Of a DNA stretch of 64,000 bases, positions 4,252-30,273 are shown piece by piece (within the stretch, counting starts at the first letter, position 1; each line of letters starts with the position of its first letter). The notes under the pieces are model-generated. The model was not told the origin of the DNA and did no database searches. It worked only from the letters and a program-made list of their open reading frames with translations. A program made the translations under genes and the position numbers. Location of the stretch: contig PMTM01000003.1 in the NCBI GenBank assembly GCA_003167365.1, positions 221,645 to 285,644 on the forward strand, in the 5' to 3' direction. The DNA is from Spartobacteria bacterium (GTDB taxonomy: Bacteria > Verrucomicrobiota > Verrucomicrobiia > Chthoniobacterales > UBA10450).

Positions 4252-6825
4252 TCATTTCTTATACATTGGCGTTTCCGGCAGCACCGGAGGCTGGACACCG
4301 TCCTGTTCCTCTTCTTCCTCGGCCTGATTAAGCGGTTGTCCCGCCGGGTTTACCAGCCGTGCTGTCACGAAGATAATCAAGTTTCGTTTGATGTGCTGAT
4401 CGACATTCGTCCGAAACAATCTCCCAATAATCGGAATATCGCCAATGATCGGCGTGCGATCTTCCACCTTCTGCACATCCTCGCGCATCAATCCGCCGAG
4501 GACAACGGTTTGCCCGTCCCACACGCTCACGCTGGTCGTGACTTTGCGCGCGCTGAATACCGGCTGGTTGATCACGTTCGGCGTCAGGACCTGAGTTTGC
4601 GAGACTCCCAATAAGTTGGTCGAGAAAGTTTGGATGGGACTGCCGTAATTGATGAAGCCTTCAAACTCAACTACCTGCGGAACGAGATTCAAATCGATCG
4701 TCACTCCGTCCGGCCCGACGACTGGCTCGACCTCGAGCGTTACGCCTGTGTTTCTCGTCTCGAACGCTGTCGGCGTAGTGGGCGTCACGGGGAAAGAAGT
4801 GGCGTTCACGGTTTGCCCTGGAACGAGGGCGGTGCTGTTTGGATTGTTAAACGACTGCGGAATCTGCGGCGGTTGAAATTGGGTCGGGTAACGGAACTCG
4901 CGCACGATCTCAATCACCGCGCGCTGGCCGCTTTTGGTTGTGACGCGCGGAGCCGAAAGAAGATCGACGCCTTTTTTCTGATTGAGCGCGCGAACAACAA
5001 CTTGGAATTGTGGATCGGTGAAAACACCGGCTAATCCAAAAATTCCCGGCGCCACCGAAGTTGCGCCATTTGTCGGAAAAAGAAGGGCGTCGATCGCGTT
5101 TGCACTAATCGCAAGATTGCCGCTGCGGTTCCCGGCCGTAACTGGGTTTTGGCCGACGGCGGCTCCTGATGAAGAAGCAAACGGGTAATCTGCGGGATTA
5201 ACCGCCGGCGATGTTCCCGCGGTACCTCCCGCTCCAAAGACTCTGTGGTTGCCGACATTGAACTGCCCTAGCAGCCAATCGAAACCCAACTCCTTGAGAT
5301 TGTTTTGCGTGATCTCGATGAACTTGGATTCTATCTCGACTTGTTTCGGCCCCGAAGCGCTCGCCTGTTCAACTAAAGCATCAACGAGTTCGAGATTGTC
5401 TTGCGTATTGCGCACAATCAGACGGCTGCTTTGCGGAAGAAAATTCGCGCTCGCGCCCGGCGGGAACGGCACGCCCTGGCTTTCGAGAAATTCTTTTGCT
5501 CCTTCGCGTTTTACAAGTTGATGACCGCCGGTGGATTCTTGCGTGTCCTTAGCAGTTCCTCCGGCTCCAGCCGCGGCCTTCGCGGGTTGATTCAGCGCTG
5601 ACGCACCGGCGTTTACCGTACCGATAATGAAGTCGGGCGGAACGCGGTATTCCTTTGTGATCAAGTCGTTGCTCTGCTCGCTCAGCGGAATAATTGAGAC
5701 CGCGTAGGGTTCGATCTTAACTTTCAAACCAGCTTGGCTCGCGATGTAGCGCAAAGCTTCACCCAACGGTATTTCATTCAGAGTGATGGTAATGCGTGCA
5801 TCCGTCGTCGAAGCAGAGCGTGTTTCTAGTGAAGCTCCGGGCGACGGCGAAGTGGTTGGCGCGTTTGTGTCTGAAGAGCGTCCTCCCGGACCGAGTCGCA
5901 AGACAATATCGACGCCTTTCCTTCCCTCGGTTGCAGGATCGTTATCCGTCGCTTGTTGCCGAAGAAAATCGATCGCTTCCCGAATGCTCGCGTCACGAAA
6001 CTCGATTCGCGGAATGACGATCGTGTTTAGCTTGTTGGAAATCCGAGCTGTGCCAGTAGCGTCTCTTCGGAAGGCGTCGACGATTGGAGTAACTGTCTGG
6101 CCATATTGTCGAACTGGTTCTTCCCAACCCTTTTCGATCTGCCAAAGCTGGCGCGAGCGCGTCTCATTGTATGCTTCCTCGCCATAATGATATTTCGTCA
6201 GGTTGATCTTTTCCTGGCCGCGTCTGGCGGCAGCGTTGTACGGATCCAAAGCCAGCACCTGCTCGTATTTCTTGAACGCGAGATCGTAACGCCCGGAGCC
6301 GTAGTAGCCGTCAGCTTCCGTGAGCAGTTTTCTCACTTCCTCAACTTTGGCGACGAACTTCGAGCCCATCGTCTTGTTGAAGGAACCGGGTTCTTGCAAG
6401 TGCGCGAGCAATTCTGCGGCCGGACGACAGTTGGGATCGTAACGCTCGTCCAAACACTCGCGCAGGATAAATTCGGCGTCGGCATATTTGGTTTCTGCAA
6501 TTCGTTGCTCTGCCAGTTTCACTCCGCTCTGACAAAAACCCTCAATCGCTTCATCGTGCGACTTGTTGGATGTCACCGCGTCCGGCAGGAAAACAAGCGC
6601 GCTGCGAAACTCCTCGTGCGCGAGCGTGAAATTCTTTTCCCGCATCGCTGCTTGGGCACGGGCCAGGGCTTCTTCGCCTTGCGGCAACGCAGCTTTCCGG
6701 CGCGCCACTTCGCGATGCGCGATGCGTTCCGCATTTTGCGCAGAGGCCGCAACACCTAACAATATTTCCGAACAGATGACCGCGCTGCAAAGAGCGGTCT
6801 TTGCCACAAACCAAATTCTTTTCAT
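4252..6825 (-). CDS. Secretin, outer-membrane channel of a type IV pilus-like machine (Amuc_1098-like)
   Basis: 857 aa. A signal peptide (cleaved near VAASAQ) is followed by a tetratricopeptide-type region (about residues 45-215), a secretin N0/STN-like domain (IPRIEFRDASIREAIDFLRQ to LKVKIEPYAVSIIPL), an N1-type ring domain (LIVRNTQDNLELVDALVEQA) and the C-terminal secretin pore domain with GQTVVLGGLMRED and TPIIGDIPIIGRLFR. Secretins form gated outer-membrane rings for pili or type II secretion. It is the last gene of a four-gene operon after the PilM/PilN, Amuc_1100-like and Amuc_1099-like genes, separated from the latter by 8 bp. TPR repeats before the secretin domain and the gene order match Akkermansia Amuc_1098. 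No pilin, PilB or PilC gene is nearby. Confidence 0.92.
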   Translation of the reverse strand: MKRIWFVAKTALCSAVICSEILLGVAASAQNAERIAHREVARRKAALPQGEEALARAQAAMREKNFTLAHEEFRSALVFLPDAVTSNKSHDEAIEGFCQSGVKLAEQRIAETKYADAEFILRECLDERYDPNCRPAAELLAHLQEPGSFNKTMGSKFVAKVEEVRKLLTEADGYYGSGRYDLAFKKYEQVLALDPYNAAARRGQEKINLTKYHYGEEAYNETRSRQLWQIEKGWEEPVRQYGQTVTPIVDAFRRDATGTARISNKLNTIVIPRIEFRDASIREAIDFLRQQATDNDPATEGRKGVDIVLRLGPGGRSSDTNAPTTSPSPGASLETRSASTTDARITITLNEIPLGEALRYIASQAGLKVKIEPYAVSIIPLSEQSNDLITKEYRVPPDFIIGTVNAGASALNQPAKAAAGAGGTAKDTQESTGGHQLVKREGAKEFLESQGVPFPPGASANFLPQSSRLIVRNTQDNLELVDALVEQASASGPKQVEIESKFIEITQNNLKELGFDWLLGQFNVGNHRVFGAGGTAGTSPAVNPADYPFASSSGAAVGQNPVTAGNRSGNLAISANAIDALLFPTNGATSVAPGIFGLAGVFTDPQFQVVVRALNQKKGVDLLSAPRVTTKSGQRAVIEIVREFRYPTQFQPPQIPQSFNNPNSTALVPGQTVNATSFPVTPTTPTAFETRNTGVTLEVEPVVGPDGVTIDLNLVPQVVEFEGFINYGSPIQTFSTNLLGVSQTQVLTPNVINQPVFSARKVTTSVSVWDGQTVVLGGLMREDVQKVEDRTPIIGDIPIIGRLFRTNVDQHIKRNLIIFVTARLVNPAGQPLNQAEEEEEQDGVQPPVLPETPMYKK

Positions 6826-6833
6826 AGGGGGGA

Positions 6834-7775
6834 CTACGGTGTGAACGAACCGATTTCGATCGGCTCGCCGGGTTTCTGCGTGTTCACGATCACCGCCTTG
6901 GCCGGTTGAACGTCTATCAGTTTATATTTTATTTGTTCCTCTGGGTTCAATGAAAATTCCTGGTCCTTTCGCACTTGGAACTCGCGGCCCTCGCCCCACG
7001 AATAGATAAAGGTCGCGACCGACTCCGGTGAGGTTGCGACTTTCTCCTTTGTTAACGCGAGTCGCTGTTTCGTTTCCTCCTGCTCGAGCGTCAGTTCGGA
7101 AAGATCGACATCGGTTCCATATTTATCCGGCTGATATTTCTCCGTAAATTTTACGATCTTGAACCGGGTTCCGCGGATGGTGTCGCCATTTTTCAGGAAC
7201 TGGGTCGGCTGTTTCAGATCGATCGTATTGATCGCGTAACTGTCGCCCACCCACGACGAAAACATCAGCCGGAATGGCTCTTCGGTGGCCGATTTCAGTT
7301 TCAACTTCGTCACGTAATCAGGATGCGAATTTCTGTTGGTCGGGTCGGAGTGCTCCTGCCATTCGTCGAGATTTGTAAATCCGTCACGATCGGAGTCTTG
7401 CTCGAGCACGTCGCCTTCCGCGATCGGCAAGCTGAATTGCTCCAGCCACTCGTTCGGCACCGGCGGGTGCACTTCCGTCGTCTCCAACGTGGCCAACAAA
7501 CCATTCGCTCCGACAAAATGTTTTTCCGGAACAAAAAGCCCGGAGCGACCGCTGAACGTCCATTGCGGTGGGCGATTAAGTTTTTGCCGCGCCGCTTCAA
7601 TCTCAACCGCCTTCGCCGGAGGCGAAGCCGTTTTCGGCGCTAGCGCGGTCTGCGACGCGGCGAACTCTGTTTGGAAGTGCGCGCTCTTGCGCCAAACCGA
7701 GGCTAAACAAAGCAAAAGAAACGCCGCCGCCGCAATCAATGCAACGCGATCGTAATGTGCGCGGATCCAGTCCAT
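6834..7775 (-). CDS. Inner-membrane-anchored pilus-locus protein (Amuc_1099-like)
   Basis: 313 aa with a single N-terminal membrane anchor (residues 12-27, VALIAAAAFLLLCLAS) and a periplasmic remainder. Residues near 118-135 read DSDRDGFTNLDEW, a calcium-binding loop of the thrombospondin type 3 / EF-hand kind. The C-terminal half (LKLKSATEEPFRLMF onward) resembles beta-rich periplasmic domains of pilus assembly factors by pattern only. It is placed between the Amuc_1100-like gene (3 bp gap) and the secretin (8 bp gap), so it is co-transcribed and probably links inner-membrane parts to the channel, as PilP does in classical systems. That role is inferred from position; homology to Amuc_1099 needs a profile search. 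Confidence 0.75.
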   Translation of the reverse strand: MDWIRAHYDRVALIAAAAFLLLCLASVWRKSAHFQTEFAASQTALAPKTASPPAKAVEIEAARQKLNRPPQWTFSGRSGLFVPEKHFVGANGLLATLETTEVHPPVPNEWLEQFSLPIAEGDVLEQDSDRDGFTNLDEWQEHSDPTNRNSHPDYVTKLKLKSATEEPFRLMFSSWVGDSYAINTIDLKQPTQFLKNGDTIRGTRFKIVKFTEKYQPDKYGTDVDLSELTLEQEETKQRLALTKEKVATSPESVATFIYSWGEGREFQVRKDQEFSLNPEEQIKYKLIDVQPAKAVIVNTQKPGEPIEIGSFTP

Positions 7776-7778
7776 CGT

Positions 7779-8651
7779 TCAAAACACCAATCGCAAAATC
7801 TCGATCCTGGCTGACGTCTCGATGTGTTCGTTGCCAACAATGAAATTCAACGCCGCGTTGCCCGCCGGCTTCGCTCCCAGCGGTATAGTGGCGGCTGTCT
7901 CAGCCGCATTTCCAGGCGCGGCCGCTACTTGTTCTCGCGCCGGGCCTTTCTCTTTCTCATTTCGTACATGTAGCGTGCGAATGATGTAGAGCTGTTGATT
8001 CGCGCTCGCGATTTCATTCAGGACCTTCCGCGCGGCTGAAGGCGCGGAGACGAAAGTCAGCTCAACAATGTTACGTTCGATCATTTTCGGCCGGGCCATC
8101 GCAGCGTTGCCACGCTCTTCCGGCAACGACGTTCGTCGAAGCGCACTCAGCGAATCGACTCGTGCGTCGATCAAAATATTCACGAGCAATTCCACCTGTG
8201 CGAGTTCCTGTCCGAGCAGCGGCGCAACCTCGTTATTTGGCAGCGCCGCGGTGAATTCATCGAAGCTAAGATGAAAATTATCCGGCAGCTTCACTTTGCT
8301 CGCTCGCGCTTTCTCTGTGCTCGCAATCATGGCCTGCCGCAATCGCGACTGAAACTCGTTCGGTGCCAGCGGAACTACCGGCAGCGAATGCTCTTTCAGT
8401 TCTTCCTTAAACTTGGCGAGACCGCCGCCGTAATTGTCGACGCCCGTCTTCAGCTTGCGATAATTCGCATCGCTCGGAAATGGATCGAGCCGCTCCAGTC
8501 GATTTCGTTCCGCGGCCGTTTCGCGACAACGCGCGGAAACTTCCTTGTAATTGCTCTTCGCGGTAAAAAGAAAGGAAACCGCGACCAAAGTGCAGATCCC
8601 GAACACAATGAGAAATCTCCCCAACCACCGATTCTCTTGGAACAAACTCAT
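7779..8651 (-). CDS. Amuc_1100-like pilus-locus membrane protein
   Basis: 290 aa. The start is ATG at 8651, which overlaps the TGA of the PilM gene as ATGA; an upstream ATG at 8705 lies inside the PilM gene and is rejected. One membrane segment (LGRFLIVFGICTLVAVSFLF) is followed by a long helical, coiled-coil-like region (YKEVSARCRETAAERNRLERL) and a C-terminal alpha/beta region. This is the layout of Akkermansia Amuc_1100 and, more distantly, PilO. A low-complexity linker near the C-terminus (AAAPGNAAETAATIPLGA) is encoded by a copy of a dispersed palindromic element at 7879-7931. Family assignment rests on locus order, length and architecture. Confidence 0.78.
   Translation of the reverse strand: MSLFQENRWLGRFLIVFGICTLVAVSFLFTAKSNYKEVSARCRETAAERNRLERLDPFPSDANYRKLKTGVDNYGGGLAKFKEELKEHSLPVVPLAPNEFQSRLRQAMIASTEKARASKVKLPDNFHLSFDEFTAALPNNEVAPLLGQELAQVELLVNILIDARVDSLSALRRTSLPEERGNAAMARPKMIERNIVELTFVSAPSAARKVLNEIASANQQLYIIRTLHVRNEKEKGPAREQVAAAPGNAAETAATIPLGAKPAGNAALNFIVGNEHIETSARIEILRLVF
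7879..7931. repeat. Dispersed palindromic element lying in frame inside the Amuc_1100-like gene
   Basis: On the plus strand the element reads GGTATAGTGGCGGCTG ... CAGCCGC and closes with GCGGCCGCTACTTG; its ends are imperfect inverted repeats (TAGTGGCGGC against GTAGCGGCCGC). The core GGCTG-tct-CAGCC is a hairpin. It resembles the element at 2390-2458. Read on the minus strand it is open and encodes a flexible Ala/Thr-rich linker, so its presence does not break the host gene. Confidence 0.5.
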
Positions 8652-10396
8652 GGGAGTTTCATCGGCCTGCGCAGTTTGACCTTCAGTGTGTACGGAAAAG
8701 CCCACTCCGCATTGTTTGGAACAGTCGGTTCGATGACATCCGACTGCTTGCTTGGATTGACATCAAAAAATGGCGAGACGGTCAGACTCCGGAAATAATC
8801 GACGACTACCTCCTGTTGCTTCGGATTGAACAAATAGAGACCGCGCCCAAGAATCCCGTCGATTGATGGCTCTGCGCTTGTTGCTGTTGCTTTCCCGCGA
8901 GGTGTATCGGAGGGCGCGAGATCGGATGCAATTTCGGCACTGCGTCTTTCATCGACTCCGACAGGTTTTCCGCCTGAGGTCGCGATCAACTCCGTGATCC
9001 AGATGTCCTCTTTCGGCAGGCGAGCATTCAATTCTTCCAGGAGTTCGACCCAGAAACTGCGATCGTTGATGGCCGCGATGAGCGGACCGGCAACGCTGTC
9101 GTGCGCGGCAACTTGTTTACGAAGCTTGTCGATCTGCGCTTCCGCCACGCGCATCGTGTCGACTTTCTGCTGCATTTGTTCTGTGATATGCCGGATCACC
9201 TGAGCAGCTCGCGCGTAATATGCGCCTAACGTGAGTAAGCCGAAAATGAAACAGGCGGCAGCCGCCACAAAAAATGGCCGCTGCTTTTCGAATTGGTGCC
9301 GGCGAACAACTCTCGCCGGACGCAAGTTCAACTTCATCGAACATTCGTTTGCGGTTCGTAGTGCGAGACCCACTGGTTCCCCCAGCAAATGTGCCGACTT
9401 CACAATTTCACTGAGCGATGCGGAGTCGGCCATGGCGACATTGCGCAGTGGATTGAAAAGCTCGGTCGGCAATTGCAATTTCTCGTGAAAAAATTCGCGC
9501 AAGCAGGGTGTGCTTGCACATCCGCCGGAGAGAAAAACCCGCTCCAGTGCACTGCCTTGTTGTTGCGCGCGATAATGGTTGATCGAGCGCATCAACTCCG
9601 CATGCAGTCGCGTCATCGTGCCGCGCACAATTTCTGAGACGCGCACAACATCATCCGGCGCCGTGCCCACTCCGACCAACTTAGCGAAACCATCGCGCTT
9701 TTTGCGAAACTCAGCCGCGGAGAACGGTTCGTCGAACTCCTTGGCGATTGCGGATGTAATAGAACTCCCGCCAATCGGCACGCTCCGACAGAAGATTTTC
9801 GCCGGTTCGATGAAGAGAAGATTGGTCGTGCGCGCCCCGATATCGACGAGGAGCGAACATCCTTTGAGATCCCCGTAGTTGTATCGAAATGCGTTGCAGA
9901 GCGCCATCGTCGCGACATCGACAATCGACGTCCGCAAACCGGTCGCTTCCACTGTCTCGTTGATCTCCTCGAGCAAGTCCGCCTTGATCGCGACGAGAAT
10001 GACTTCGACCTGTTCCTCTGCGCTGCCGCCAACCACCTGGTAATCCCAAACAACTTCATCGATTGGAAACGGAACATTTTGCTGCGCCTCGAAGGAAATG
10101 ATCTGTTCGATCTTCTCCTCCTCGATCGACGGCAGCTTCACGAATCGCGTGAAAACCAAATTCTCGGCAATAGCGTAGTTGACGTTCCCGCTCTTGATTT
10201 GCAGCGCGTCCAGCATTTCGCGCAACGCGTTTGCAACCTGCGCGTGCTGCATTCCTTCCGCCGGATCGACCAGAAGTTCCCGCGTGTGGTAGCCATGCAA
10301 GATCAACCCGCCATCTGGCCGAGCGCGAAACTCCGCCAGCTCGATGCTTTGCGAGCCGAGATTGAGACTAAGAATGCGAGTCCGGGGGGAAGACAT
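8648..10396 (-). CDS. PilM-PilN fusion protein of the pilus-like locus (Amuc_1101-like)
   Basis: 582 aa. Residues 1 to about 350 are a PilM-type actin/FtsA-fold ATPase: ILSLNLGSQSIELAEF, SCLLVDIGARTTNLLFIE in slightly varied form, and VFLSGGCASTPCL. After the basic stretch RRHQFEKQR a membrane helix (FFVAAAACFIFGLLTLGAYY, about 371-393) begins a PilN-like half with a coiled coil and a periplasmic domain (SFWVELLEELNARLPKEDIWI). In classical systems PilM and PilN are separate proteins that bind each other; here they are one chain. First gene of the operon, overlapping the Amuc_1100-like gene by 4 bp (ATGA). Confidence 0.88.
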   Translation of the reverse strand: MSSPRTRILSLNLGSQSIELAEFRARPDGGLILHGYHTRELLVDPAEGMQHAQVANALREMLDALQIKSGNVNYAIAENLVFTRFVKLPSIEEEKIEQIISFEAQQNVPFPIDEVVWDYQVVGGSAEEQVEVILVAIKADLLEEINETVEATGLRTSIVDVATMALCNAFRYNYGDLKGCSLLVDIGARTTNLLFIEPAKIFCRSVPIGGSSITSAIAKEFDEPFSAAEFRKKRDGFAKLVGVGTAPDDVVRVSEIVRGTMTRLHAELMRSINHYRAQQQGSALERVFLSGGCASTPCLREFFHEKLQLPTELFNPLRNVAMADSASLSEIVKSAHLLGEPVGLALRTANECSMKLNLRPARVVRRHQFEKQRPFFVAAAACFIFGLLTLGAYYARAAQVIRHITEQMQQKVDTMRVAEAQIDKLRKQVAAHDSVAGPLIAAINDRSFWVELLEELNARLPKEDIWITELIATSGGKPVGVDERRSAEIASDLAPSDTPRGKATATSAEPSIDGILGRGLYLFNPKQQEVVVDYFRSLTVSPFFDVNPSKQSDVIEPTVPNNAEWAFPYTLKVKLRRPMKLP

Positions 10397-12695: not shown

Positions 12696-12839
12696 TTAGA
12701 TGCCTTTGCCGGGGCCGGTTCCGGAGGCGTAACCACCCTTTCCGGAGAGGCCAACGCCTGATGCGGTAGAGCCGCCGCCGCCTTTAGCGTCTTTTTTAGG
12801 TTTCAAATCACGAACTTTGATGTTTTTCTTTGTAGCCAT
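12696..12839 (-). CDS. Glycine-rich double-glycine precursor peptide
   Basis: 47 aa, below usual gene-finder limits. The leader MATKKNIKVRDLKPKKDAKGG (residues 1-21) ends in Gly-Gly and matches the leader of the neighbouring peptide (K-x-I-[RK]-[LV]-x-D-L-x-P-K-x-[ND]-[VA]-x-G-G). The remaining 26 residues are the presumed exported core: 11 Gly plus Ser/Thr, two Lys and one Tyr, no Cys, ending GTGPGKGI. The gene starts 3 bp after the stop of the upstream peptide gene, whose last codons supply the AAGAAGAA ribosome site, so translation is coupled. A strong terminator follows. The C39-peptidase ABC exporter in the same block is the obvious processing enzyme. Bacteriocin, signal or structural peptide are all possible. 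Confidence 0.8.
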   Translation of the reverse strand: MATKKNIKVRDLKPKKDAKGGGGSTASGVGLSGKGGYASGTGPGKGI

Positions 12840-12842
12840 TTC

Positions 12843-13031
12843 TTATTCTTCTTTCTTGTTTTGGGTTGTTTGTTGCGTGTCAGTAGCACCAAATAGCAAT
12901 TGACGGCCGCCAAGGACGTTCCCTTTCGGGATCAGATCATCCAGGCGGATCAATTTTGCCTTCTTGTGCTTTTGCTTTCGAATTCCAGATTCGTCAGCAG
13001 AAACATTTTTGTTCTCTTTCGGCGTACTCAC
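12843..13031 (-). CDS. Double-glycine precursor peptide with 20-residue core
   Basis: 62 aa from a GTG start at 13031 (AGGA eight bases upstream). The first 25 residues are charged (MSTPKENKNVSADESG, then Lys-rich), followed by the conserved leader end KLIRLDDLIPKGNVLGG at residues 26-42. Cleavage after Gly-Gly would release a 20-residue hydrophilic peptide starting RQLLFG and ending NKKEE, rich in Gln and Thr, with no Cys. Eight of the last 17 leader positions are identical to the downstream glycine-rich peptide although the cores are unrelated, the hallmark of a shared leader recognised by one peptidase. It lies 206 bp after the sigma-54 activator gene on the same strand. Confidence 0.8.
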   Translation of the reverse strand: MSTPKENKNVSADESGIRKQKHKKAKLIRLDDLIPKGNVLGGRQLLFGATDTQQTTQNKKEE

Positions 13032-13237
13032 TTGCCGATCCTGTTACCAGTATTCATGCCAGCACTTGTAAACCCGTTGAGTTCGGAAATTCGCCACCCA
13101 TCGCGCGACATTGATCTCCAAGGGTTTATCAAATCGAAACAATTTCTAAATCTACAAGATCGACAAAACGGAGTGATCTCTTAATGCGCGATCCTGGCAC
13201 AACTAAGGTGCAATTTAATACCATCGTTGGCTCACTT
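13032..13237 (-). promoter_or_regulatory. Candidate regulatory gap before the precursor peptides
   Basis: This 206-bp AT-richer gap separates the activator gene from the two peptide genes and is the natural place for a promoter that lets the peptides be transcribed more strongly than the exporter genes. A GC-box pair with sigma-54-like -24 sequence (CTGGCATG) exists near the peptide start but its -12 half is poor and it is too close to the start codon. I cannot name a convincing promoter. Confidence 0.3.
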
Positions 13238-14236
13238 TTAGGCCAATTTACGGAGATGTCGGGCCAGCGTTGCTCGCGAAATTCCCAGAAGCTTTGCGGC
13301 CTGCCTTTGATTACGTGCGGTCTGCTGGTAAACCAAACTGACATGTCGCCCGACCGCTGAAGCTAGTGTGAAGTCATCCTTGGCGGCCTTGTCATTGTTA
13401 TTACTTGGTAAGTTTCCATTATGTTCCGCGCCATGTCTTGACGATGGGACGCCAGTTAAGTCGGGAGGGAACACGACATGTTCCGGCAAGATCACAGGCC
13501 CATCGCAGAACAAGGTCATAGTGCGAACAGTGTGACTCAATTCGCGCAGATTTCCCGGCCAAGGATAGACAGTAAGTCTTTCCATAGCCTGTGGGTGAAT
13601 GGCCGTGATCGCTTTCCCTTCGCGCACTGCTGCCGCTTTCAATTCCGCGGCAATCAGCGCCGGCAACTCTTCCAATCTTTCGCGCAAGGGCGGAATCAAC
13701 AGCGTCAGGCCATTAAGACGATGATAAAGATCCTCGCGGAATTTATCCTGAGCGACTCTTCCCCGCAGCGAGCAGTTCGTTGCGCAAATGATACGCGTGT
13801 CGCACTTGAGCATTCGCTCCGAACCCAATCGTTCGAACTCACCGTACTCGAGAACGCGCAAGATCTTTACCTGTGCGAGGGGGCTCATCTCCGAGATCTC
13901 GTCGAGGAAGAGAGTACCATCGTTAGCCAGTTCGAACTTTCCTTTCACAGCCTGTTGGGCGCCGGTAAACGCGCCACGCTCGTGGCCAAACAATTGGCTT
14001 TCGAGGAGCGTATCGCTCATTGCCGAGGCGTTGAAGGACACGAATGGCTGCGCCGCACGCTCGGAGGAATTATGAATTGCGTGCGCGAGCAATGTTTTCC
14101 CGGTGCCGGTCTCCCCGAGCAAAACAACCGGAACGTCTGATTTCGCGGCGAGAGCAGCCAAGCGGAGACAGCGGGCCATTGCCTCGTTGGTGGTGGTCAA
14201 GTCTTCGACCCGCAAGCTGGAAAACGGCTGTTGCAT
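13238..14236 (-). CDS. Sigma-54-dependent transcriptional activator without sensor domain
   Basis: 332 aa. The AAA+ domain begins almost at the N-terminus: Walker A GETGTGKT at residues 41-48, the sigma-54 contact loop GAFTGA at 88-93, Walker B GTLFLDEI, and the arginine-finger region FREDLYHRLN. The C-terminal 45 residues form a Fis-type helix-turn-helix (RNQRQAAKLLGISRATLARHL). It opens promoters held by RpoN. Like PspF, it has no receiver, GAF or PAS domain, so its activity must be controlled by a partner protein or by its level. It follows the membrane-fusion gene by 16 bp and precedes the precursor peptides, making it the likely local regulator of the export system. Confidence 0.92.
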   Translation of the reverse strand: MQQPFSSLRVEDLTTTNEAMARCLRLAALAAKSDVPVVLLGETGTGKTLLAHAIHNSSERAAQPFVSFNASAMSDTLLESQLFGHERGAFTGAQQAVKGKFELANDGTLFLDEISEMSPLAQVKILRVLEYGEFERLGSERMLKCDTRIICATNCSLRGRVAQDKFREDLYHRLNGLTLLIPPLRERLEELPALIAAELKAAAVREGKAITAIHPQAMERLTVYPWPGNLRELSHTVRTMTLFCDGPVILPEHVVFPPDLTGVPSSRHGAEHNGNLPSNNNDKAAKDDFTLASAVGRHVSLVYQQTARNQRQAAKLLGISRATLARHLRKLA

Positions 14237-14252: not shown

Positions 14253-15434
14253 CTAGTCGCGGATATTTTCGCGCAATTGCCGGATCGGCTCGAACGCGTA
14301 CTCGATTAAGGTGCGCCGGCCGACAACAATCCTGGCCTCGCCTCGCATTCCGACCCGTATTGGAAGCGGCTTGCCATGCGATTTTTCGCTTTCGTCCAGC
14401 GAAGCGAGCGCGACAAAGTGCGTTCCTTCCGGGGATGAAACCGCCGACGGGCTAATCCAATCGAGCTTGGCATTGACCGCGCCGTAGCGCTGGTAAGGAA
14501 AAGCATCAAAGAAGAAACGCACCCTTTGACCAACGGCGAGTTTAGGCAGACCGGCTTCGCCAAGGAGCAGACGAGCGTGCGGTTGGGCATCAAGGCGAGC
14601 TAATTGACATAACTCCTGGCCGTTTTGAACGACACTTCCTGCGTTGCGTTGCGTAAGCGAAATGACGACTCCGTCATACGGCGCCCGCACCGACAACATG
14701 TTCTGTTGCGAATTCTCCAAATCACTTTTCAACGCCGCTATGCGGAACTTCAGTTTTTCGATTTCGGCCACTTGTTCCCCGCGTAGCTGCGCGTGTTCCG
14801 ACTCCATCCGTTGTCGATCCAGCGTGACCTGCTGCAAAGTTCGTTGCGCAACACTCAAATCCTTTTCGGAAGCAGCCAAATCCAGGCGAAGCCGAATGAA
14901 GTCGACTTTGGATATTCCGCCGCTGTTGGAAAGCGTTTCCATTCGATCAACAAGCTCCCGGCTGGTGGAAGTGTGCTTTTCCCGGAATTTCACTTCGCTT
15001 TCCGCATTTGAAATTTCGGCAAGCTTGATCTCAAGCTGAGACGCGTAAGCCGTGTCGGCTTTGACCAAGCCATGCTCATGGGTTCGCAAATCCTCGGCCA
15101 GAGTACCGGCCTGGGTGCTCAAACCGCGGATTTCATCCGAACGCAAAACGAACAACTCCTGCCCGGCTTTCACCGTCTCGCCTTCGCTGACATTCACTCG
15201 ACTGACGACAGCGAGCCGCGAGGATTGGATGGGATCCGCGCCATTTTTCGGAGCCAAGATAAACGGCGCACTGACTGTTTCCGGAAGATGAACCGTGACG
15301 GCAGCGATCATGGCCGTTCCAAACATCGCGACAAGCAACCACGCGATGCCTCTTATGATCCGCGGTGGCGGATCTTGCGGCATCATTTCCGACTCGGAAT
15401 CGACCGGGTCGTGTTGTCCTAGAGGTGCGCTCAT
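14253..15434 (-). CDS. HlyD-type membrane-fusion protein of the peptide exporter
   Basis: 393 aa. A cytoplasmic N-tail (about 27 aa) is followed by a membrane helix (GIAWLLVAMFGTAMIAAV), a first biotinyl-lipoyl half (VVSRVNVSEGETVKAGQELF), a long alpha-helical hairpin (about residues 115-245), the second lipoyl half (SVRAPYDGVVISL) and a beta-barrel domain (GQRVRFFFDAFPYQRYG). This is the adaptor layout of type I secretion systems, which bridges the ABC exporter to an outer-membrane TolC protein. No TolC gene is present in the window, so a TolC encoded elsewhere would be needed. It lies 9 bp after the exporter gene. Confidence 0.92.
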   Translation of the reverse strand: MSAPLGQHDPVDSESEMMPQDPPPRIIRGIAWLLVAMFGTAMIAAVTVHLPETVSAPFILAPKNGADPIQSSRLAVVSRVNVSEGETVKAGQELFVLRSDEIRGLSTQAGTLAEDLRTHEHGLVKADTAYASQLEIKLAEISNAESEVKFREKHTSTSRELVDRMETLSNSGGISKVDFIRLRLDLAASEKDLSVAQRTLQQVTLDRQRMESEHAQLRGEQVAEIEKLKFRIAALKSDLENSQQNMLSVRAPYDGVVISLTQRNAGSVVQNGQELCQLARLDAQPHARLLLGEAGLPKLAVGQRVRFFFDAFPYQRYGAVNAKLDWISPSAVSSPEGTHFVALASLDESEKSHGKPLPIRVGMRGEARIVVGRRTLIEYAFEPIRQLRENIRD

Positions 15435-15443
15435 AAATTTACT

Positions 15444-18400
15444 TCAAATGGCCATCTGCTGACTGGAGAGATAAAAATAGAGTCCACGTTGCGCCATTAG
15501 CTCATCGTGGGTTCCGATTTCTGCGACACTGCCTTTTTCGAGAACGACGATGGCGTTCGCCTCTCTAACCGTGCTCAAACGGTGCGCGATCACGATTGTG
15601 GTCCGCCCCACCATTAATCGTCCCAGGTTATCCTGAATGGCGCGCTCCGATTCGGTGTCGAGCGCGCTGGTGGCTTCGTCAAAAATCAATACCGGCGGGT
15701 TATTGTAAATCGCGCGCGCGATGGCGACGCGTTGCTTCTGGCCACCGGATAATGAAAGTCCTGATTCGCCGATCTTGGTCTCATAACCCAGCGGCAGACG
15801 CATGATGAAATCGTGAGAGGCGGCTGCTTGAGCGGCCCACAAAACGCGATCCAGGTCGGGCTCGGCGTCGCCGAAGGAAATATTGCGCGCGATTGTCTCG
15901 TTAAAGATGTGATTCTCTTGCAATACCATCCCGATGTGACGGCGGACGTCGCGGTAACTCAGCGACTTAAGATCAACATTATCGAATAGGATCGTCCCCT
16001 CGGTCGGTTCGAGAAGACCCGCGATAAGTTTGATCAGCGTTGTCTTGCCGCAGCCACTGCGTCCGACCAGGGCGACCATCCGCCCCGGCGCAATATCCAT
16101 CGTGATCCCTTTTAGAATATCGGGAGATTCGGGCCCGCCATATTTGAAGCTAACATTGCGAAGTTCAATGCGGCCTTCCAAGCTGTGCACCGGCGTGAGC
16201 CGCGACCGGTCGTGTCCCTGTTCCGGTTCCTGTTCGAAGATATCATTCAGCCGATTCAGAAGAACCGAGGCAAATTGCATGTTGTCCCATATTCCGAGTG
16301 TTCTCATGATTCCGGCGTAAGCCATCGCCGTTAGCGAACTGAACGCAACGAAACCGCCAATGCTGAGCTGCCCGCTGATCACCTGATTCGCACCGACCCA
16401 GAGAAAGATCGCGGTCGAAAGCATCCCAATCGTCGTTAGCACGCTGTCGTACGACATCACGATGAAACCGCTTCGGAATATTTTGCGCGAGACGGCAAGG
16501 AACTCGTTTAGCATCATGTCGCGAAAAACCGACTCCGCCGCGGCCGCCTTTACCGCTTCAATGCCTTTGATCGCGTCGATTTGATGCGAGCTGTATTTTC
16601 CCTGGCTCTCTTCCACGTCGGCGAACAACGGCCGGAGGACTTTGCGCGAGAAATACATGAGGACGCCGTAGAGCGGAGTGGTCGCGAGAAACGCCAGCAT
16701 CAAGGACGTGCTATAGAGCATCATCAAACACAGCGCGCCGGTGAGTTGAATTAAAGCGAGCAGCGCACCGACTCCGTTGCCGACGGCGAATTGTCGAACT
16801 TGCCGCGCGCCATCAAGCCGGCGTTGAATGTCGCCGGTGCGACGACTCGTGAAGTAAGTCATCGGCAGCGACAAAAGCTGGCGACTTAGGAAATCGAGGA
16901 TCGCGGTATCGAGACGGACCGCGGCGAACGAGAGCAGATATTCCTGCGCGAGCGAAGAAGCTTGCACAAAAAAGAGCACGGCTCCCATTCCCAGGAGAAT
17001 TGTTTTGAGCAGGCCGATGTCTTTTTCGACGATGACCTTGTCCACCACCATTTCCGTGAAGACAGGGAAGAGCAGTGAAAGAATGCTGACGGCGACGGCC
17101 AGCAACAACACTTGCAACAAGATCCGGCGGAACTTGGCGAAAAAGGGGAACAGCCATGTGAGCGTGGCTTTTGATTCGGGCGCCTGCTCGAATGCGATTG
17201 TGTAATCGAACAAGGCGGCGTAACCGGACCATTTTTGTTCGAACTCCTTTCGCGGAATGCGGCGCAGGCCGGAGGCCGGATCGGCTACGCGAACGAATTT
17301 TTCATCGACATCGTACAAGACCATCCAGTGGTTGCCTTCCCAATGGACGATCGCTGGCAACGGAAGGTGCGGAAGATTACGCAACGAAACTTTGAGCGCG
17401 CGGGCCGCGAGACCAAGCTCTGTCGCCGCCCGACAAAGCGCTTTCAAGCTCGTTCCGTCCGTCGCGGTGTGACAGAGCTGACGAATGCGCGCGAGGCTGA
17501 CCTTTCTCCCAAAATGCCGGCAGATCATTCCCAAGCTCGCCGCGCCGCAATCCATCTCATCGATCTGCGCAATGTGCTCGAACCGGCGAAGACGCTTTTT
17601 GTTTTTGCGGAAAAAACCGTTCTCATCGGCAAACGGTTCGGCGCCATTTTCGCTTGCCGTAGCAGCGGGTGTTTGTCCGTCTAAAGCCGTCTTGTCGTGT
17701 GTCGCTGCTTCAGCGGGAAGATTTTCCACCGTGAAATCGAGCGGGATGCGCGCTTCGGTCTTTGCCTGATATTGCGCGAGCCGTTCCTCGAGCAGGTTCT
17801 GGAATTCAGGGAAGCGCCGCTTCAGGTCTTGAACCGCATCGGGTTCGAGCGCCAGTAATTGGCACTCGGTGAACGCCTCGACCGAAGCGGCGCGCGCTGA
17901 GCCGTTCAAGATCGACAACTCGCCGAAGTAATCACCATCCCGATAAAACGCGAGGTTGTGTTCACGTCCATTATTCGCCAAAAATGCGCGCGCGCGCCCT
18001 TTCTCCAGAATGAACATTGGCCCGGCCGGATCGCCTTGCTTGATAATGAGTCCGCCCTTTTGGCAAACCATCGGGGTCAGATTCTCCATCATGCTGCGCA
18101 ACGCCGGGACCGGCAGACGGCCGAAATTGCTAAACTGATAGAGAAAACCCTGCAGCGCTCGCTGCCGTCCCGTCATCTCGACGTGATGTCTCAGCTCGGG
18201 GATTTTCTTGAGCAGATCTAAAAACGCTTCACGATCGATGCGCACCAAGACCACCGCCGTGCTACAACGAACAGTCGCCTTTCGCGTTCCTCCTTCCGCC
18301 AGAGCAGCTTCGCCAAAACTGTCCCCCGGTCGGAGAGCGCCCAGTACGATCTCCTCACCGTTCGGCAGTATCTTCAGCGCGCGTGCGCGTCCGGAAGTCA

Positions 18401-18560
18401 GCACATAAAACGCGTCGGCTGGATCTCCTTCGCGAACAATGATCTCGCCAAACTCGTACTGTTCCTCCTGCAATAGCGGGCTGATTTTTTCGAATACCTC
18501 GTCGGGGAGGAATTGAAAAAACGAGGAGCGCCTCAGCGCGGCATCTTCTTCCGTGTTCAT
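15444..18560 (-). CDS. C39-peptidase ABC exporter with two cyclic-nucleotide-binding domains
   Basis: 1038 aa from the ATG at 18560, coupled to the preceding gene by a TAATG overlap; a start at 18587 would add nine residues. Domains in order: two cNMP-binding (CAP-type) domains (about 12-125 and 150-260), a linker, a C39 double-glycine peptidase (catalytic Cys338 in EMDCGAA, His411 in HWEGNHW, Asp427 in VADPA), six membrane helices (from about 480), and the ATPase (Walker A VGRSGCGKTT, signature LSGGQKQR, Walker B LIFDEATSALD, switch His in IAHRLST). Such proteins cut leaders after Gly-Gly and export the core. cNMP domains before C39 recall NHLP-type bacteriocin exporters. The two leader peptides of the same block are the probable substrates. 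Confidence 0.93.
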   Translation of the reverse strand: MNTEEDAALRRSSFFQFLPDEVFEKISPLLQEEQYEFGEIIVREGDPADAFYVLTSGRARALKILPNGEEIVLGALRPGDSFGEAALAEGGTRKATVRCSTAVVLVRIDREAFLDLLKKIPELRHHVEMTGRQRALQGFLYQFSNFGRLPVPALRSMMENLTPMVCQKGGLIIKQGDPAGPMFILEKGRARAFLANNGREHNLAFYRDGDYFGELSILNGSARAASVEAFTECQLLALEPDAVQDLKRRFPEFQNLLEERLAQYQAKTEARIPLDFTVENLPAEAATHDKTALDGQTPAATASENGAEPFADENGFFRKNKKRLRRFEHIAQIDEMDCGAASLGMICRHFGRKVSLARIRQLCHTATDGTSLKALCRAATELGLAARALKVSLRNLPHLPLPAIVHWEGNHWMVLYDVDEKFVRVADPASGLRRIPRKEFEQKWSGYAALFDYTIAFEQAPESKATLTWLFPFFAKFRRILLQVLLLAVAVSILSLLFPVFTEMVVDKVIVEKDIGLLKTILLGMGAVLFFVQASSLAQEYLLSFAAVRLDTAILDFLSRQLLSLPMTYFTSRRTGDIQRRLDGARQVRQFAVGNGVGALLALIQLTGALCLMMLYSTSLMLAFLATTPLYGVLMYFSRKVLRPLFADVEESQGKYSSHQIDAIKGIEAVKAAAAESVFRDMMLNEFLAVSRKIFRSGFIVMSYDSVLTTIGMLSTAIFLWVGANQVISGQLSIGGFVAFSSLTAMAYAGIMRTLGIWDNMQFASVLLNRLNDIFEQEPEQGHDRSRLTPVHSLEGRIELRNVSFKYGGPESPDILKGITMDIAPGRMVALVGRSGCGKTTLIKLIAGLLEPTEGTILFDNVDLKSLSYRDVRRHIGMVLQENHIFNETIARNISFGDAEPDLDRVLWAAQAAASHDFIMRLPLGYETKIGESGLSLSGGQKQRVAIARAIYNNPPVLIFDEATSALDTESERAIQDNLGRLMVGRTTIVIAHRLSTVREANAIVVLEKGSVAEIGTHDELMAQRGLYFYLSSQQMAI

Positions 18561-19741
18561 TACGCGTAGCTCATCGGCCCGTGCCATTGAATGTGATGGG
18601 AGACCAGTTTGGAAAAATGAAGATCAAGAACCCGTTTATCAACCCGTTCGCGGATCGCTGGATCCTCGGCGTTTGGCTCGATCTTTTCGATCATGCGCCA
18701 AAGCTGAAAACCGTCGCCGCGCGCGATCGGTTCGAGCACGCTTCCCTCCGGGACGCTGAGAAATGTTTGCTGAAGATCAGGCTCGATATCTTCGATCAAA
18801 AGTTGAACGCGCCGGTATGGATATCGCCCTTCCTTGGCGACTTCTTCCATGGAAAGTCCATCGACTGTTACGCAAAGCGACGCTTCGCTCGCCGCGTCCT
18901 TCGACTCCACTTCCAGCATTTCCACATCCAGTCGCGTCAACGGCAAACGCAAAGTGCCCATTTCACGCTGACGGATTTGCGGCGTAAGAAGTTCGGTGCG
19001 GATTCGGTTATGAATTGCTTCCAACCGCAACATCTCGTTCAACCACTGCTCGTCCCGTCCAAGTCGGTTCAGCCAAGCGGGCAACTTTTTCCCATCGATT
19101 TCCGCACGTTTGAAGAATTGCTCTTTTTCTGCCGCAAGATCGACATCGGTATTTTTCGATTCCTGGAATCCGGCCACGCGCCAGCTCAATCGCGTTGCTA
19201 GCCGATCGAACTCGCCTAAAAGAATGAGCTCTGCCCTAAGCCACGCGCGCATTTCCTCAGACGCGGAAAGATAGTCGGCGGCTTGAGCCTGAACCGTGTC
19301 CTGCAAGCTGTTTTTCCAATAGTGCCGCGAAAAATAAGCGCCAAACTCATCCATCGTAAGGCCACGCGCCTCGAGCCATTGCTCCGTTTCCTCCGCAGTG
19401 ATCAAGTCGTGGTCGTAGCGAAACGCTTCCACTGCTGCGTCCACGACCGACTCATCCATCTCCACGTCGCCAGATTGGTTTTCGCTCGCGACGCAACGAA
19501 GCAGTTCCTTCCAGGTTGGCTCCAGCTCACCGCGAAAAAGAGCGGCATCAATGACGTCCCGGTCCGTGTAGGAAATGTGCCCACACGTAAAGACGGCGGC
19601 GCCTTCTTGTAAGGCAGGCTGGCTCTCTGGCTTGGACACGAGTCGGACTTTTACTCGAAGTCCTTGTGACAAGTCGAGCCTACAATGCGCCTCTTGGCCT
19701 AATTGTGAGACACAAGGGCAACTTATTGGGCCACTGGCCAT
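18560..19741 (-). CDS. PpiC-related peptide-maturation-type protein
   Basis: 393 aa without a signal peptide. The N-terminal 60 residues look unlike family members and the true start may be a GTG near 19635. Helical SurA/PpiC-like regions (TEETEQWLEARGLTMDEFGAYF) lead to a C-terminal parvulin-like part: SLCVTVDGLSMEEVAKEGRYPYRR and VPEGSVLEPIARGDGFQLWRM. I know a PpiC-related family found beside leader-peptide export genes (TIGR04500, putative peptide maturation protein); this gene fits it by context and layout, but only a profile search can confirm. It heads the export block, with TAATG coupling to the ABC gene. Likely role: chaperoning or presenting the precursor peptides. Confidence 0.7.
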   Translation of the reverse strand: MASGPISCPCVSQLGQEAHCRLDLSQGLRVKVRLVSKPESQPALQEGAAVFTCGHISYTDRDVIDAALFRGELEPTWKELLRCVASENQSGDVEMDESVVDAAVEAFRYDHDLITAEETEQWLEARGLTMDEFGAYFSRHYWKNSLQDTVQAQAADYLSASEEMRAWLRAELILLGEFDRLATRLSWRVAGFQESKNTDVDLAAEKEQFFKRAEIDGKKLPAWLNRLGRDEQWLNEMLRLEAIHNRIRTELLTPQIRQREMGTLRLPLTRLDVEMLEVESKDAASEASLCVTVDGLSMEEVAKEGRYPYRRVQLLIEDIEPDLQQTFLSVPEGSVLEPIARGDGFQLWRMIEKIEPNAEDPAIRERVDKRVLDLHFSKLVSHHIQWHGPMSYA

Positions 19742-27483: not shown

Positions 27484-27501
27484 CCGCAGCTTAAGCTGCG
27501 G
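27484..27501. repeat. Perfect 18-nt palindrome over the ku stop codon
   Basis: CCGCAGCTTAAGCTGCGG is a perfect palindrome between convergent genes; the TTAA centre contains the stop codon of ku. It may act as a weak terminator for both directions, but it has no T run. Confidence 0.4.
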
Positions 27502-28342
27502 CGCGTCGCTTTTGTTTAACCAAAGACGATGTCGATCTTCGCGCGCCGTTGGAACCGCGTTTCACCCTTACCGACTTACTCCGATTCAAGCTTTCCTGTA
27601 GAACTTTAACCAGATCGACAACGTTCGTGCTCGGCGGTGGCGCAACGGCTCGCGCGGGAATCTTTTTGTTTTTCGCTTTTTGCTCGATTACCTCAAGCAT
27701 CGCGGTGCGGTATTCATCGCGATATTTCTCCGGCTCCCAATCGCTCGACATGCTGTCGATCAAGGCTTGCGCCATCTTCAATTCCTTTTCGTTCAGAGCT
27801 GTAGAGGGTCCGCGATTCAATTCTTCCGCGCTCAGAATCTCACTGGCGAAATGCATCAACTCCAAAATCAGAAACAAGCCGTCGGGCTTGACCGCAGCGA
27901 GATGCTCCCGATTGCTAATCACTACCTTGGCGATGCCGATCTTGCCGGTTCCGCTCAGTGCTTTGTGTAAAAGCGCGTAAGCTTTCTCGCCGCCTTTTTG
28001 CGGTTCGAGAAAATACGGCTTGTAGAAAAACTTCGGATCCACTTGGTGAAGATCGACGAAATCGGTGATGTCGATGGAATGAGTCGATTCGATTTTTACT
28101 TTCTCGAAATCTTCGTCACTCAACACAACATACCGGCCGCGTTCGTACTCGAAGCCTTTTACGATCTCTTCCGTAGCCACTTCTTTCGAATCCGCTTCGG
28201 CCACCTTCTTGTATTTGATCGGGCTGAGATCGGTGCGGCGTAGCTGACGAAAACTTAGCTTCTCCTCGCGCGTGGCGGGATAAACCGCGATCGGAATGTA
28301 AACCAATCCAAAGCTGATGCTGCCTTTCCAAGTCGGACGCAT
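27491..28342 (-). CDS. ku: Ku DNA-end-binding protein (NHEJ)
   Basis: 283 aa. Bacterial Ku forms a homodimeric ring on double-strand ends and recruits LigD. The Ku core starts MRPTWKGSISFGLVYIPIAVY, then SFRQLRRTDLSPIKYKKV and DITDFVDLHQVDPKFFYKPYFL. The C-terminus is a Lys/Arg-rich tail (SKSVRVKRGSNGARRS, then KQKRRAAA), the extension that aids threading and LigD contact in other species. It is placed 206 bp downstream of ligD on the same strand. The gap between them has no gene; it holds a hairpin (GTGTTCCC...GGGAGCAC) and an A-rich run. Confidence 0.93.
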   Translation of the reverse strand: MRPTWKGSISFGLVYIPIAVYPATREEKLSFRQLRRTDLSPIKYKKVAEADSKEVATEEIVKGFEYERGRYVVLSDEDFEKVKIESTHSIDITDFVDLHQVDPKFFYKPYFLEPQKGGEKAYALLHKALSGTGKIGIAKVVISNREHLAAVKPDGLFLILELMHFASEILSAEELNRGPSTALNEKELKMAQALIDSMSSDWEPEKYRDEYRTAMLEVIEQKAKNKKIPARAVAPPPSTNVVDLVKVLQESLNRSKSVRVKRGSNGARRSTSSLVKQKRRAAA

Positions 28343-28548
28343 AAATCTTAGAGCGGGAATGTCGTTTCCATCAATTGTGAATAAATGTCAATAACCTTCT
28401 TGTGGAAGCTTATTCACTAAGCACGAAGTGTTCCCACATTGCGGGAGCACCGAACAAGAAAAAAAAGCCTCGCAATTCCTACAAGGTCGTCCTCACGACG
28501 CAAAGAGATTGAGCATTTCGCGATGACGGGGGCAATCTGTAAGTCGCG

Positions 28549-30273
28549 CTAGTTTTCTCGCCCGACCTCTATCGCATCCTTGTCTTCGCGCAGGCCCAGA
28601 AAGACCGGTTGGCGCAGTTTTCCATCGCGCGTCCACTCCGCGAACTTGATTTGAGCAACAAAGACGGGATTCACCCAATGCATCTTCTTCATCATGGATG
28701 GGGTGATGCCTTGCACCCATTGGCCCCCCTGTTTTGAAGGCAGGTCGGCAAAAGGACAATCGCTACGTCGTTCCTTCTGAAATTTCTTGTACAACATCGC
28801 CAACGACTGCGACGTAAAACCGCTGCCGACTTTGCCCGCGAACAAGAGTTTCCTGTCCTTGTAGTAACCGACCAGGATTGCGCCGAAGTATTTTCGCGAT
28901 CCGCCCGGCGGCGTGTACCCGCCAATAACGAATTCCTGTTCGTTAACGCATTTTAGTTTGATCCAGGCCCCGCTTCGCCGTCCGGGTTCGTAAACAGAAT
29001 TCTCTTTCTTGCCGACAAGTCCTTCGAGCCCGCGGCGTTTTACTTCTGCTAGTAACTTTGGCGCATCCGAACCGATCTCTCCGGAAAAACGAATGGGATC
29101 GCCGGCGCCTGCGCAGATCCTGGAGAGGATTTCCTTGCGTTGCACAAGAGGTAACTTGATCAAGCTCCTGCCTTCGAGCTGAGGCAGATCGAAAACGTAA
29201 AAGCAGATCGGCGCCTCTTGTCTCTCCATTTCATGCGCCTGCAGGAGTTGAAATGAGGAGCGGCCTTCCTTATCCAGCGCAACAATTTCACCGTCGATTA
29301 CACACTCGTGAAGTGGCAATTTCTTCACTGCGTCCGCGATTTCGGGAAACCGTGTGCTCAATTCATTTTCGTTTCGCGACATTAAATTTACTTTGCCGCG
29401 ATTTTTCATGGCGATCGCGCGAATACCGTCGAATTTCAGTTCGTAGATCCAGTCACCAGCTGTCGGTGGAGTCTCCACCAAACGCGGTTTCATCGGTTCG
29501 ACGAAACGCGGTTTCGCCTTAGGCAGCGACTCAGGTAGGGACGGATCTCCGAGCCGTCCGTCAAAATGCGCTTTGTCTTTGATTTGTCGGCGCGCTCGGA
29601 GATCGCGCCCTACCTTTGATTTCGGCAAGCGACGCGCCTGCCCGACAATCTTTTTGATCCGCGCCTTGAATGAATCCGGTTCGTCGCCTGGACGGTTTGA
29701 TTGCCACTCCGCGTCGCGCTCTTCACCGATCTGCTTCATGGTCCGGTTGGTCTTCACCGATTGATCGTCCAATTTCTTGGAAACCGGCTTAACGCTCGAA
29801 CCGGTTTTTATGATCAGCCAATTCTTTCCTCCATCGCCGCGAATGCGAACGAGAGTCCATTCGCCTTTTGCTTTCTTCCCGTCGAGAACGAGATGGAGCC
29901 GGCCTTCGCGCCAAGCTTTGAGCGGCTGCTCGCCGTAAACGTAATAGTTGCCCCGGTCCCACAACATGACGGTGCCGCCGCCGTATTGTCCCTTTGGAAT
30001 CAGGCCTTCGAACGTGGCGTATTCGACTGGATGATCTTCCACTTCGACGGCGAGATGTTTCTCGCTCGGCTTCCAGGGCAAACCTTTCGGGACCGCCCAC
30101 GATTTCAGAACGCCGTCCATCTCCAGACGGAAATCGTAATGCAACCGGCTGGCATCGTGTTTTTGAATGATGAACCGTGATGCGCCTTTCACCGCTTTCG
30201 GCAAAGGCTTTCCGCCTTTCGGCTCGGCCGTTTTTCCGAAGTCGCGCTTTCGTTTGTATTCAACCAGTCCCAT
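28549..30273 (-). CDS. ligD: DNA ligase D with phosphoesterase and ligase domains (no polymerase)
   Basis: 574 aa. Residues 30 to about 160 are the 3'-phosphoesterase domain (RFIIQKHDASRLHYDFRLE with its His and Asp metal residues). Residues 255-560 are the ATP-dependent ligase: adenylated Lys280 in YELKFDGIRA, DGEIVALD, and the OB-fold part GLVGKKENSVYEPGRRSGAW. The polymerase domain found in the three-domain LigD of Pseudomonas or Mycobacterium is absent, so gap filling must come from elsewhere. The linker (residues 221-247) is encoded by an 81-bp inverted-repeat element at 29534-29614. Works with Ku encoded next to it. Confidence 0.93.
   Translation of the reverse strand: MGLVEYKRKRDFGKTAEPKGGKPLPKAVKGASRFIIQKHDASRLHYDFRLEMDGVLKSWAVPKGLPWKPSEKHLAVEVEDHPVEYATFEGLIPKGQYGGGTVMLWDRGNYYVYGEQPLKAWREGRLHLVLDGKKAKGEWTLVRIRGDGGKNWLIIKTGSSVKPVSKKLDDQSVKTNRTMKQIGEERDAEWQSNRPGDEPDSFKARIKKIVGQARRLPKSKVGRDLRARRQIKDKAHFDGRLGDPSLPESLPKAKPRFVEPMKPRLVETPPTAGDWIYELKFDGIRAIAMKNRGKVNLMSRNENELSTRFPEIADAVKKLPLHECVIDGEIVALDKEGRSSFQLLQAHEMERQEAPICFYVFDLPQLEGRSLIKLPLVQRKEILSRICAGAGDPIRFSGEIGSDAPKLLAEVKRRGLEGLVGKKENSVYEPGRRSGAWIKLKCVNEQEFVIGGYTPPGGSRKYFGAILVGYYKDRKLLFAGKVGSGFTSQSLAMLYKKFQKERRSDCPFADLPSKQGGQWVQGITPSMMKKMHWVNPVFVAQIKFAEWTRDGKLRQPVFLGLREDKDAIEVGREN
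29534..29614. repeat. 81-bp inverted-repeat element inserted in frame in ligD
   Basis: The left end GGTAGGGACGGATCTCCGAG and the complement of the right end, GGTAGGGCGCGATCTCCGAG, agree at 17 of 20 positions, so the element has about 25-bp terminal inverted repeats around a short unpaired centre. It is 81 bp (27 codons) long and open on the minus strand, encoding the basic linker VGRDLRARRQIKDKAHFDGR and seven more residues of LigD. Confidence 0.75.

Follow-up and report, generated by a model that had tools for sequence, protein, structure and literature searches.

A proline-marked double-glycine leader class tied to one clade of cNMP-C39 exporters in soil Verrucomicrobia, with two families of predicted secreted peptides

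Two tiny and unannotated genes, here called peptide A and peptide B, lie next to each other in the window (the whole stretch of 64,000 nucleotides that was analysed), which is part of a 3.13-Mb verrucomicrobial genome from a family of soil Chthoniobacterales or 'Udaeobacter'-type MAGs. Both are real genes, encoding what are predicted to be precursors of secreted peptides. The favoured reading, to which a probability of about 0.8 is assigned, is that A and B are small secreted-peptide precursors whose lineage-specific leader is read by the adjacent type I exporter. An earlier note on this DNA had placed both open reading frames on the minus strand, A running from 13031 to 12843 and B from 12839 to 12696, and this description holds:

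12843–13031, minus strand: peptide A precursor, 62 aa, GTG start, based on the open reading frame and 38 distinct orthologues
13031–12906, minus strand: peptide A leader through GG, 42 aa, ending in KLIRLDDLIPKGNVLGG; predicted mature part RQLLFGATDTQQTTQNKKEE
12696–12839, minus strand: peptide B precursor, 47 aa, ATG start, based on the open reading frame and about 100 distinct B precursors
12839–12777, minus strand: peptide B leader through GG, 21 aa, MATKKNIKVRDLKPKKDAKGG; predicted mature part GGSTASGVGLSGKGGYASGTGPGKGI

The two leaders share eight of 17 aligned positions, as had been claimed (-1, -2, -7, -8, -10, -11, -15 and -17), and their resemblance exceeds chance. Within the 3.13-Mb genome, D-L-x-P-x-x-[DN]-[AV]-x-G-G, searched as a degenerate DNA pattern, has two matches, namely peptides A and B, about 130 bp apart, and its reversed control has none. 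Among orthologues, the mean codon entropy of the leader at positions 1, 2, and 3 is 0.49, 0.30, and 1.14 bits for peptide A, and 0.75, 0.70, and 1.39 bits for peptide B; since the variation falls mainly on third codon positions, the leaders are conserved as protein, under purifying selection. The nearest relative (G020; exporter identity 91%) has the same B leader (IKVRDLKPKKDAKGG) as the window, and the B cores are unrelated.

Family A is a single conserved peptide, in which leader and core are both conserved across the 38 distinct orthologues (mean core identity of 56%). Family B comprises about 100 distinct precursors with a mean leader identity of 62% and a mean core identity of 26%, against 25% for shuffled cores, and its conservation drops sharply exactly after GG. 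Leaders that remain alike ahead of cores at shuffle level are what is expected of export leaders. This boundary, together with the intact catalytic residues of the C39 domain and the strong association with a neighbouring exporter that bears a peptidase (both described below), makes it very improbable that these are small cytoplasmic proteins with a conserved segment serving another role and an incidental GG, an explanation that would suit their basic, low-complexity composition and the fact that cleavage is a prediction.

The B cores, with a median length of 23 aa, are rich in Gly, Thr, and Ser, contain His, and are hydrophilic (median GRAVY -0.97), too much so for classical membrane-active bacteriocins. 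Cys is present in three of 100 cores, and no residue pattern is common to them. A repeated 4-mer was found in 21 of 91 cores, compared to a shuffle mean of 5.6 and a maximum of 11, with GQHTGQHTGQH, PTGTQPTGTQ, and AAQGHAAQGH as examples. Within family B, a 'WRR' subfamily (NINVVRSAWRRVKKD...RDLKPVKDVKGG) is scattered in genomes, with several copies within one genome, and its stand-alone precursors hold an extra N-terminal NINVVRSAWRRVKKD segment ahead of the B-type leader (L119, L122, L130, L183, L188, L194, and others). No convincing conserved neighbours were recognised for this subfamily, the apparent clusters resolving into antisense frames or into common genes seen at few loci. Another B subfamily, ending in GEIDFMxWD, is located away from the exporter (L113, L114).

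The leader itself was examined in 138 distinct precursors, 38 of A and 100 of B. The near-invariant positions common to both families are D-11, L-10, P-8, a mostly acidic or amide residue at -5 ([D/N]), a small hydrophobic one at -4 ([V/A]; Val in 38/38 A leaders, Ala or Val in 93/100 B leaders), and GG. Pro(-8) is present in 137 of the 138 leaders, Gly(-2) in all 138, and Gly(-1) in 137, with the reservation that the B set was partly gathered by pattern, which biases the positions specified by the pattern upward; the exporter-anchored count given below is the unbiased one. The A leaders have additional conserved residues at I-15, L-13, D-12, I-9, and V-4, and the family consensus is LIRLDDLIPKxxVxGG-RQLLFGATD. 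In the B leaders, with the consensus [KR]VRDLKPxKDAKGG, the additional conserved residues are K-6, D-5, and K-3, and Val or Ile is preferred at -13. Hence, of the two residues that had been proposed as fixed from A and B alone, the proline at -8 is retained, but Lys(-7) is rejected as a feature of the class, because it is found in 29/38 A leaders but in only 30/100 B leaders; in B, it is Lys(-6) and Asp(-5) that are fixed.

Classical double-glycine leaders, of the class II bacteriocin or ColV type, follow LSxxELxxIxGG, with Glu at -8 and a hydrophobic residue at -7. The GG at -2/-1 and the hydrophobic -4 of this consensus are present in the new leaders, and the C39 domain of the exporter is normal by sequence, as would be expected if A and B simply carried drifted leaders of the ordinary kind, with no recognition class of their own. 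This explanation is considered unlikely. Glu(-8) and the hydrophobic residue at -7 are absent, replaced by an invariant proline and a mostly polar or variable position, and almost no variation is seen at D(-11), L(-10), or P(-8) in the 38 A and 100 B leaders (nor at K(-6) and D(-5) in B), which sets the leader apart from the classical class, as the earlier note had proposed. Moreover, 31 members gave no relevant match to any leader or bacteriocin model of Pfam or NCBIfam at E ≤ 1, only stray ones. No NCBIfam or Pfam match to the NHLP or Nif11 (N11P) leader domains was obtained either, and a literature search with the motif strings returned no match. The suspicion that the class had been overlooked is thus borne out for these family libraries, in which it is missing.

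Upstream of the peptides, the operon encodes the following proteins, in the minus-strand order SurA/PpiC-like protein, (cNMP)2-C39-ABC exporter, HlyD, sigma54 activator, peptide A, and peptide B:

18560–19741, minus strand: SurA/PrsA-like protein with a parvulin-type (PpiC) domain (TIGR04500 at 32.9 bits, below its cut-off)
15444–18587, minus strand: peptidase-containing ABC exporter, 1047 aa (PF00027 twice, PF03412, PF00664, PF00005)
14253–15434, minus strand: HlyD-type membrane fusion protein (TIGR01843 at 6e-42, below the curated cut-off, and PF13437)
13238–14236, minus strand: sigma54-dependent transcription activator, AAA+ with a Fis-type HTH and without a sensor domain (PF00158 at 2e-63)

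This arrangement recurs in approximately 25 related genomes, and it is also present in another family of the taxonomic order. The exporter consists of two cNMP-binding domains, a C39 peptidase, a transmembrane region, and an ATPase. The catalytic Cys, His, and Asp of its C39 domain are intact in an alignment to the peptidase domains of ComA and PCAT1, where the Cys is in register with that of ComA, and His and Asp are also in register. The AlphaFold model of the SurA/PpiC-like protein is of good overall confidence (pLDDT 86) but of low confidence for residues 1–46, and the true start probably lies downstream of the first ATG. Its best PDB matches are SurA and PrsA, with the parvulin-type part at the C-terminus; whole-chain TM-scores against both are low, so that its domain arrangement differs from theirs. 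The protein is a putative peptide chaperone.

Genes flanking the operon encode type IV pilus-like proteins, TyrRS, a sugar epimerase, a CobB/CobQ-like amidotransferase, and Ku/LigD, and neither a RiPP-modifying enzyme nor a recognisable immunity gene was found among those examined. The secretin and PilM-like genes, at 4252–10396 of the window on the minus strand, downstream of the peptides, were judged by eye to be of the type IV pilus type; Ku and LigD (NHEJ) are located at 27491–30273.

A conserved element is found just upstream of peptide A:

13045–13061, minus strand: conserved element, TGGCATGAATACTGGTA

Its consensus, TGGCAY-G-RAT-NN-TGNTA (YTTGGCAYGRATNNTGNTAA), hardly varies among 35 aligned upstream regions. 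In the window, the element sits 13 nt before the GTG of peptide A, and 24 of the 26 matches in the scanned loci immediately precede a peptide A gene; some stand-alone B genes also have a relaxed copy in front of them. The first half corresponds to the sigma54 -24 box, and the second half is non-canonical, lacking the usual TTGC; no canonical sigma54 sites (TGGCAY-N5-YTGCW) were found near the peptides. Around the peptides, scans for sigma70 promoters and intrinsic terminators yielded no signal exceeding that of shuffles. Given the adjoining sigma54 activator and the presence of rpoN in the genome, the likeliest reading of the element is a variant sigma54 promoter, although this reading implies a nearly leaderless transcript, which counts against it.

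The link between leader and exporter was quantified by anchoring the search on the exporter. The motif D-L-x-P-x5-GG has 37 matches in the 33 kb downstream of the activator. In the remaining 577 kb of strand-bases it has two, including one true B-type peptide, and the reversed motif has none downstream of the activator and one elsewhere. Thus, matches are enriched more than 300-fold downstream of the operon. Across the family (61 genomes), a related pattern has around 60 matches, in 29 genomes, against one for the reversed control; 25 genomes hold both exporter and motif, four only the exporter, four only the motif, and 28 neither, with a Fisher P of 4e-9 that is only a guide, the related genomes not being independent. 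Most discordant genomes either are fragmented, with remnants of the operon at the ends of contigs, or hold variant peptides that fall outside the pattern. In a survey of 289 genomes of the phylum (at least 85% complete), an exporter at least ~69% identical was present in three genomes, all with the motif; the other 286 gave two background matches, one per genome, and none of the 43 with other C39-type exporters has the motif.

On a larger scale, a strict pattern was found in 76 stretches from 46 assemblies (84,980 species genomes searched), almost all in one verrucomicrobial lineage, and in no viral contig. Outside that lineage, a freshwater genome from another family of the order (G314/L164) holds the whole operon with one A and five B peptides, and a pond member of the Verrucomicrobiales (L173) has a 59%-identical exporter directly upstream of the peptide. 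Co-occurrence of the leader with this exporter is supported, while its co-location stands only in part: enrichment downstream of the operon is strong, but only 44 of the 76 strict stretches have peptide A or an operon gene within the same piece of at most 8 kb. Roughly half of the strict matches are on pieces without the exporter, owing in part to short contigs and in part to the dispersal of the 'WRR' subfamily. Similarly, the proposal that the leader is served by the cNMP-C39 exporter family applies to one clade (at least ~59% identical) but not to more distant homologues (37–42% identical; G174, G186, and others), near which no peptide with such a leader was recognised. No close exporters were found on plasmids, where the only homologues are 32% identical, in Caballeronia. 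The class is, in sum, tied to one exporter clade and to one verrucomicrobial order plus one other order.

Several individual loci deserve comment. The strict match in L171 lies inside a 566-aa frame and was discarded as chance. In L167, from a bin named Bifidobacterium breve that seems to be misnamed, the motif is near the C-terminus of the frame, with no exporter in its 8 kb, and this candidate was also rejected. L195, from an 'Acidobacteria' bin, encodes a peptide typical of the 'WRR' subfamily, and is probably a mis-binned verrucomicrobial contig. The operon and upstream element of L045 (G047:C91) are not followed by a recognisable peptide A, and A and B are found on another contig (L101) of the same genome; either an assembly break or a second copy would account for this. 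Three copies of a frame, IYVEPSEIRRGGN, lie upstream of a distant cNMP-C39 operon (G186; L241:4741–7090, plus strand), and are probably a DNA repeat. The L173 precursor (5773–5979, plus strand) has the predicted core LLLPAVQKIREAAAR, which we take to be reminiscent of a motif close to the beginning of the pilin-like DUF1559 proteins of planctomycetes.

Considering the genes, their conservation, and their neighbourhood, the following mechanism can be proposed. The sigma54 activator and the conserved upstream element would probably turn the peptide genes on. The SurA/PpiC-like protein, acting in the cytoplasm, would probably keep the precursor unfolded, and the exporter would read the leader, [basic stretch]-x-I-x-V-x-D-L-x-P-x-[K/x]-[D/N]-[V/A]-x-G-G, a motif that is presumably what the C39 domain recognises. 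Judging from its intact catalytic residues, this domain is expected to cut after Gly-Gly, and the core would exit via ABC-HlyD and a TolC-type pore encoded elsewhere. By analogy with HetC, the two cNMP domains may gate export through a nucleotide signal. Peptide A would be a conserved single-copy product, and the B peptides fast-diversifying, hydrophilic products rich in Gly, Thr, Ser, and His, some of them encoded far from the exporter; most likely, the products of both families would act as extracellular matrix or competition peptides.

Secreted peptides are searched for with leader rules derived mainly from Firmicutes, Enterobacteria, and Cyanobacteria. The present case shows that a clade of cNMP-C39 exporters can be accompanied by a leader of a clearly distinct kind, and that current family libraries fail to detect its likely substrates, in a lineage that is common among soil metagenome assemblies. 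The leader logo and the exporter clade make the question of specificity directly testable. A more far-reaching proposal, somewhat short of even odds, is that a clade with changed C39 specificity (the D-L-x-P-x-K-D code), genome-wide, fast-diversifying, hydrophilic, and often tandem-repeat peptides, a dedicated sigma54 switch, and two nucleotide-sensing gates may together constitute a separate lineage-specific secretion system of soil Verrucomicrobia.

Among known systems, the rosaritide cluster MirA-D, which directs the synthesis of a graspetide, combines a PCAT with a TIGR04500 partner, the N-terminal domain of which weakly resembles a RiPP recognition element, and it provides an example of a SurA-like protein acting on precursors (PMC13097080). 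The locus described here likewise holds a PpiC/SurA-like partner beside a C39 exporter and a short precursor. As TIGR04500 proteins are required partners in graspetide synthesis (PMC13097080), and the cores are rich in Thr, Ser, and His, A and B could be RiPP precursors, with a motif recognised chiefly by the SurA/PpiC-like partner or by a modifying enzyme encoded elsewhere, and with export as a secondary matter. However, the partner scores 32.9 bits against a TIGR04500 cut-off of 180, no graspetide synthetase was seen (the flanking proteins scanned include no ATP-grasp synthetase, and the flanking genes examined no LanM, YcaO, or radical-SAM gene), and the cores have almost no Cys and no common residue pattern, so this explanation is rated as improbable, a little below that of drifted leaders.

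The closest gene set is that of the cyanobacterial bacteriocin clusters of groups I and II, in which a long-type C39 ABC transporter with an N-terminal CAP_ED (cNMP) domain occurs with HlyD and SurA (PMC3140520, PMC4558948). The same combination is present at the window locus, including the SurA/rotamase protein and several short, Gly-rich GG precursors, many of them unannotated. Nevertheless, the cyanobacterial leader consensus, M(R/K)ELX3E(I/L)X2(I/V)XG(G/A) (PMC3140520), is not matched by the A/B logo, the leader here being D-L-x-P-x-K-D-[AV]-K-G-G, and only here does the operon include a sigma54 activator and a conserved peptide A that precedes the B genes. EbfG1-4 from Synechococcus elongatus, which enable biofilm formation and require the catalytic Cys of the C39 exporter PteB for efficient secretion (PMC4997328), are also several small GG-leader proteins with mature parts devoid of known domains, but from a different phylum and with a different leader.

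HetC from Nostoc PCC 7120 is likewise a C39-ABC exporter with an N-terminal cNMP-type domain, a single one that binds ppGpp in vitro; it has no known substrate or nearby classical leader, and an atypical cleavage signal has been suggested for it (PMC10986499). The exporter described here differs in having two cNMP domains and proposed substrates, and offers a concrete precedent for HetC-type exporters, for which such a signal has been suggested (PMC10986499). A and B thus represent a new class of leaders and precursors, most likely served by an already known kind of exporter.
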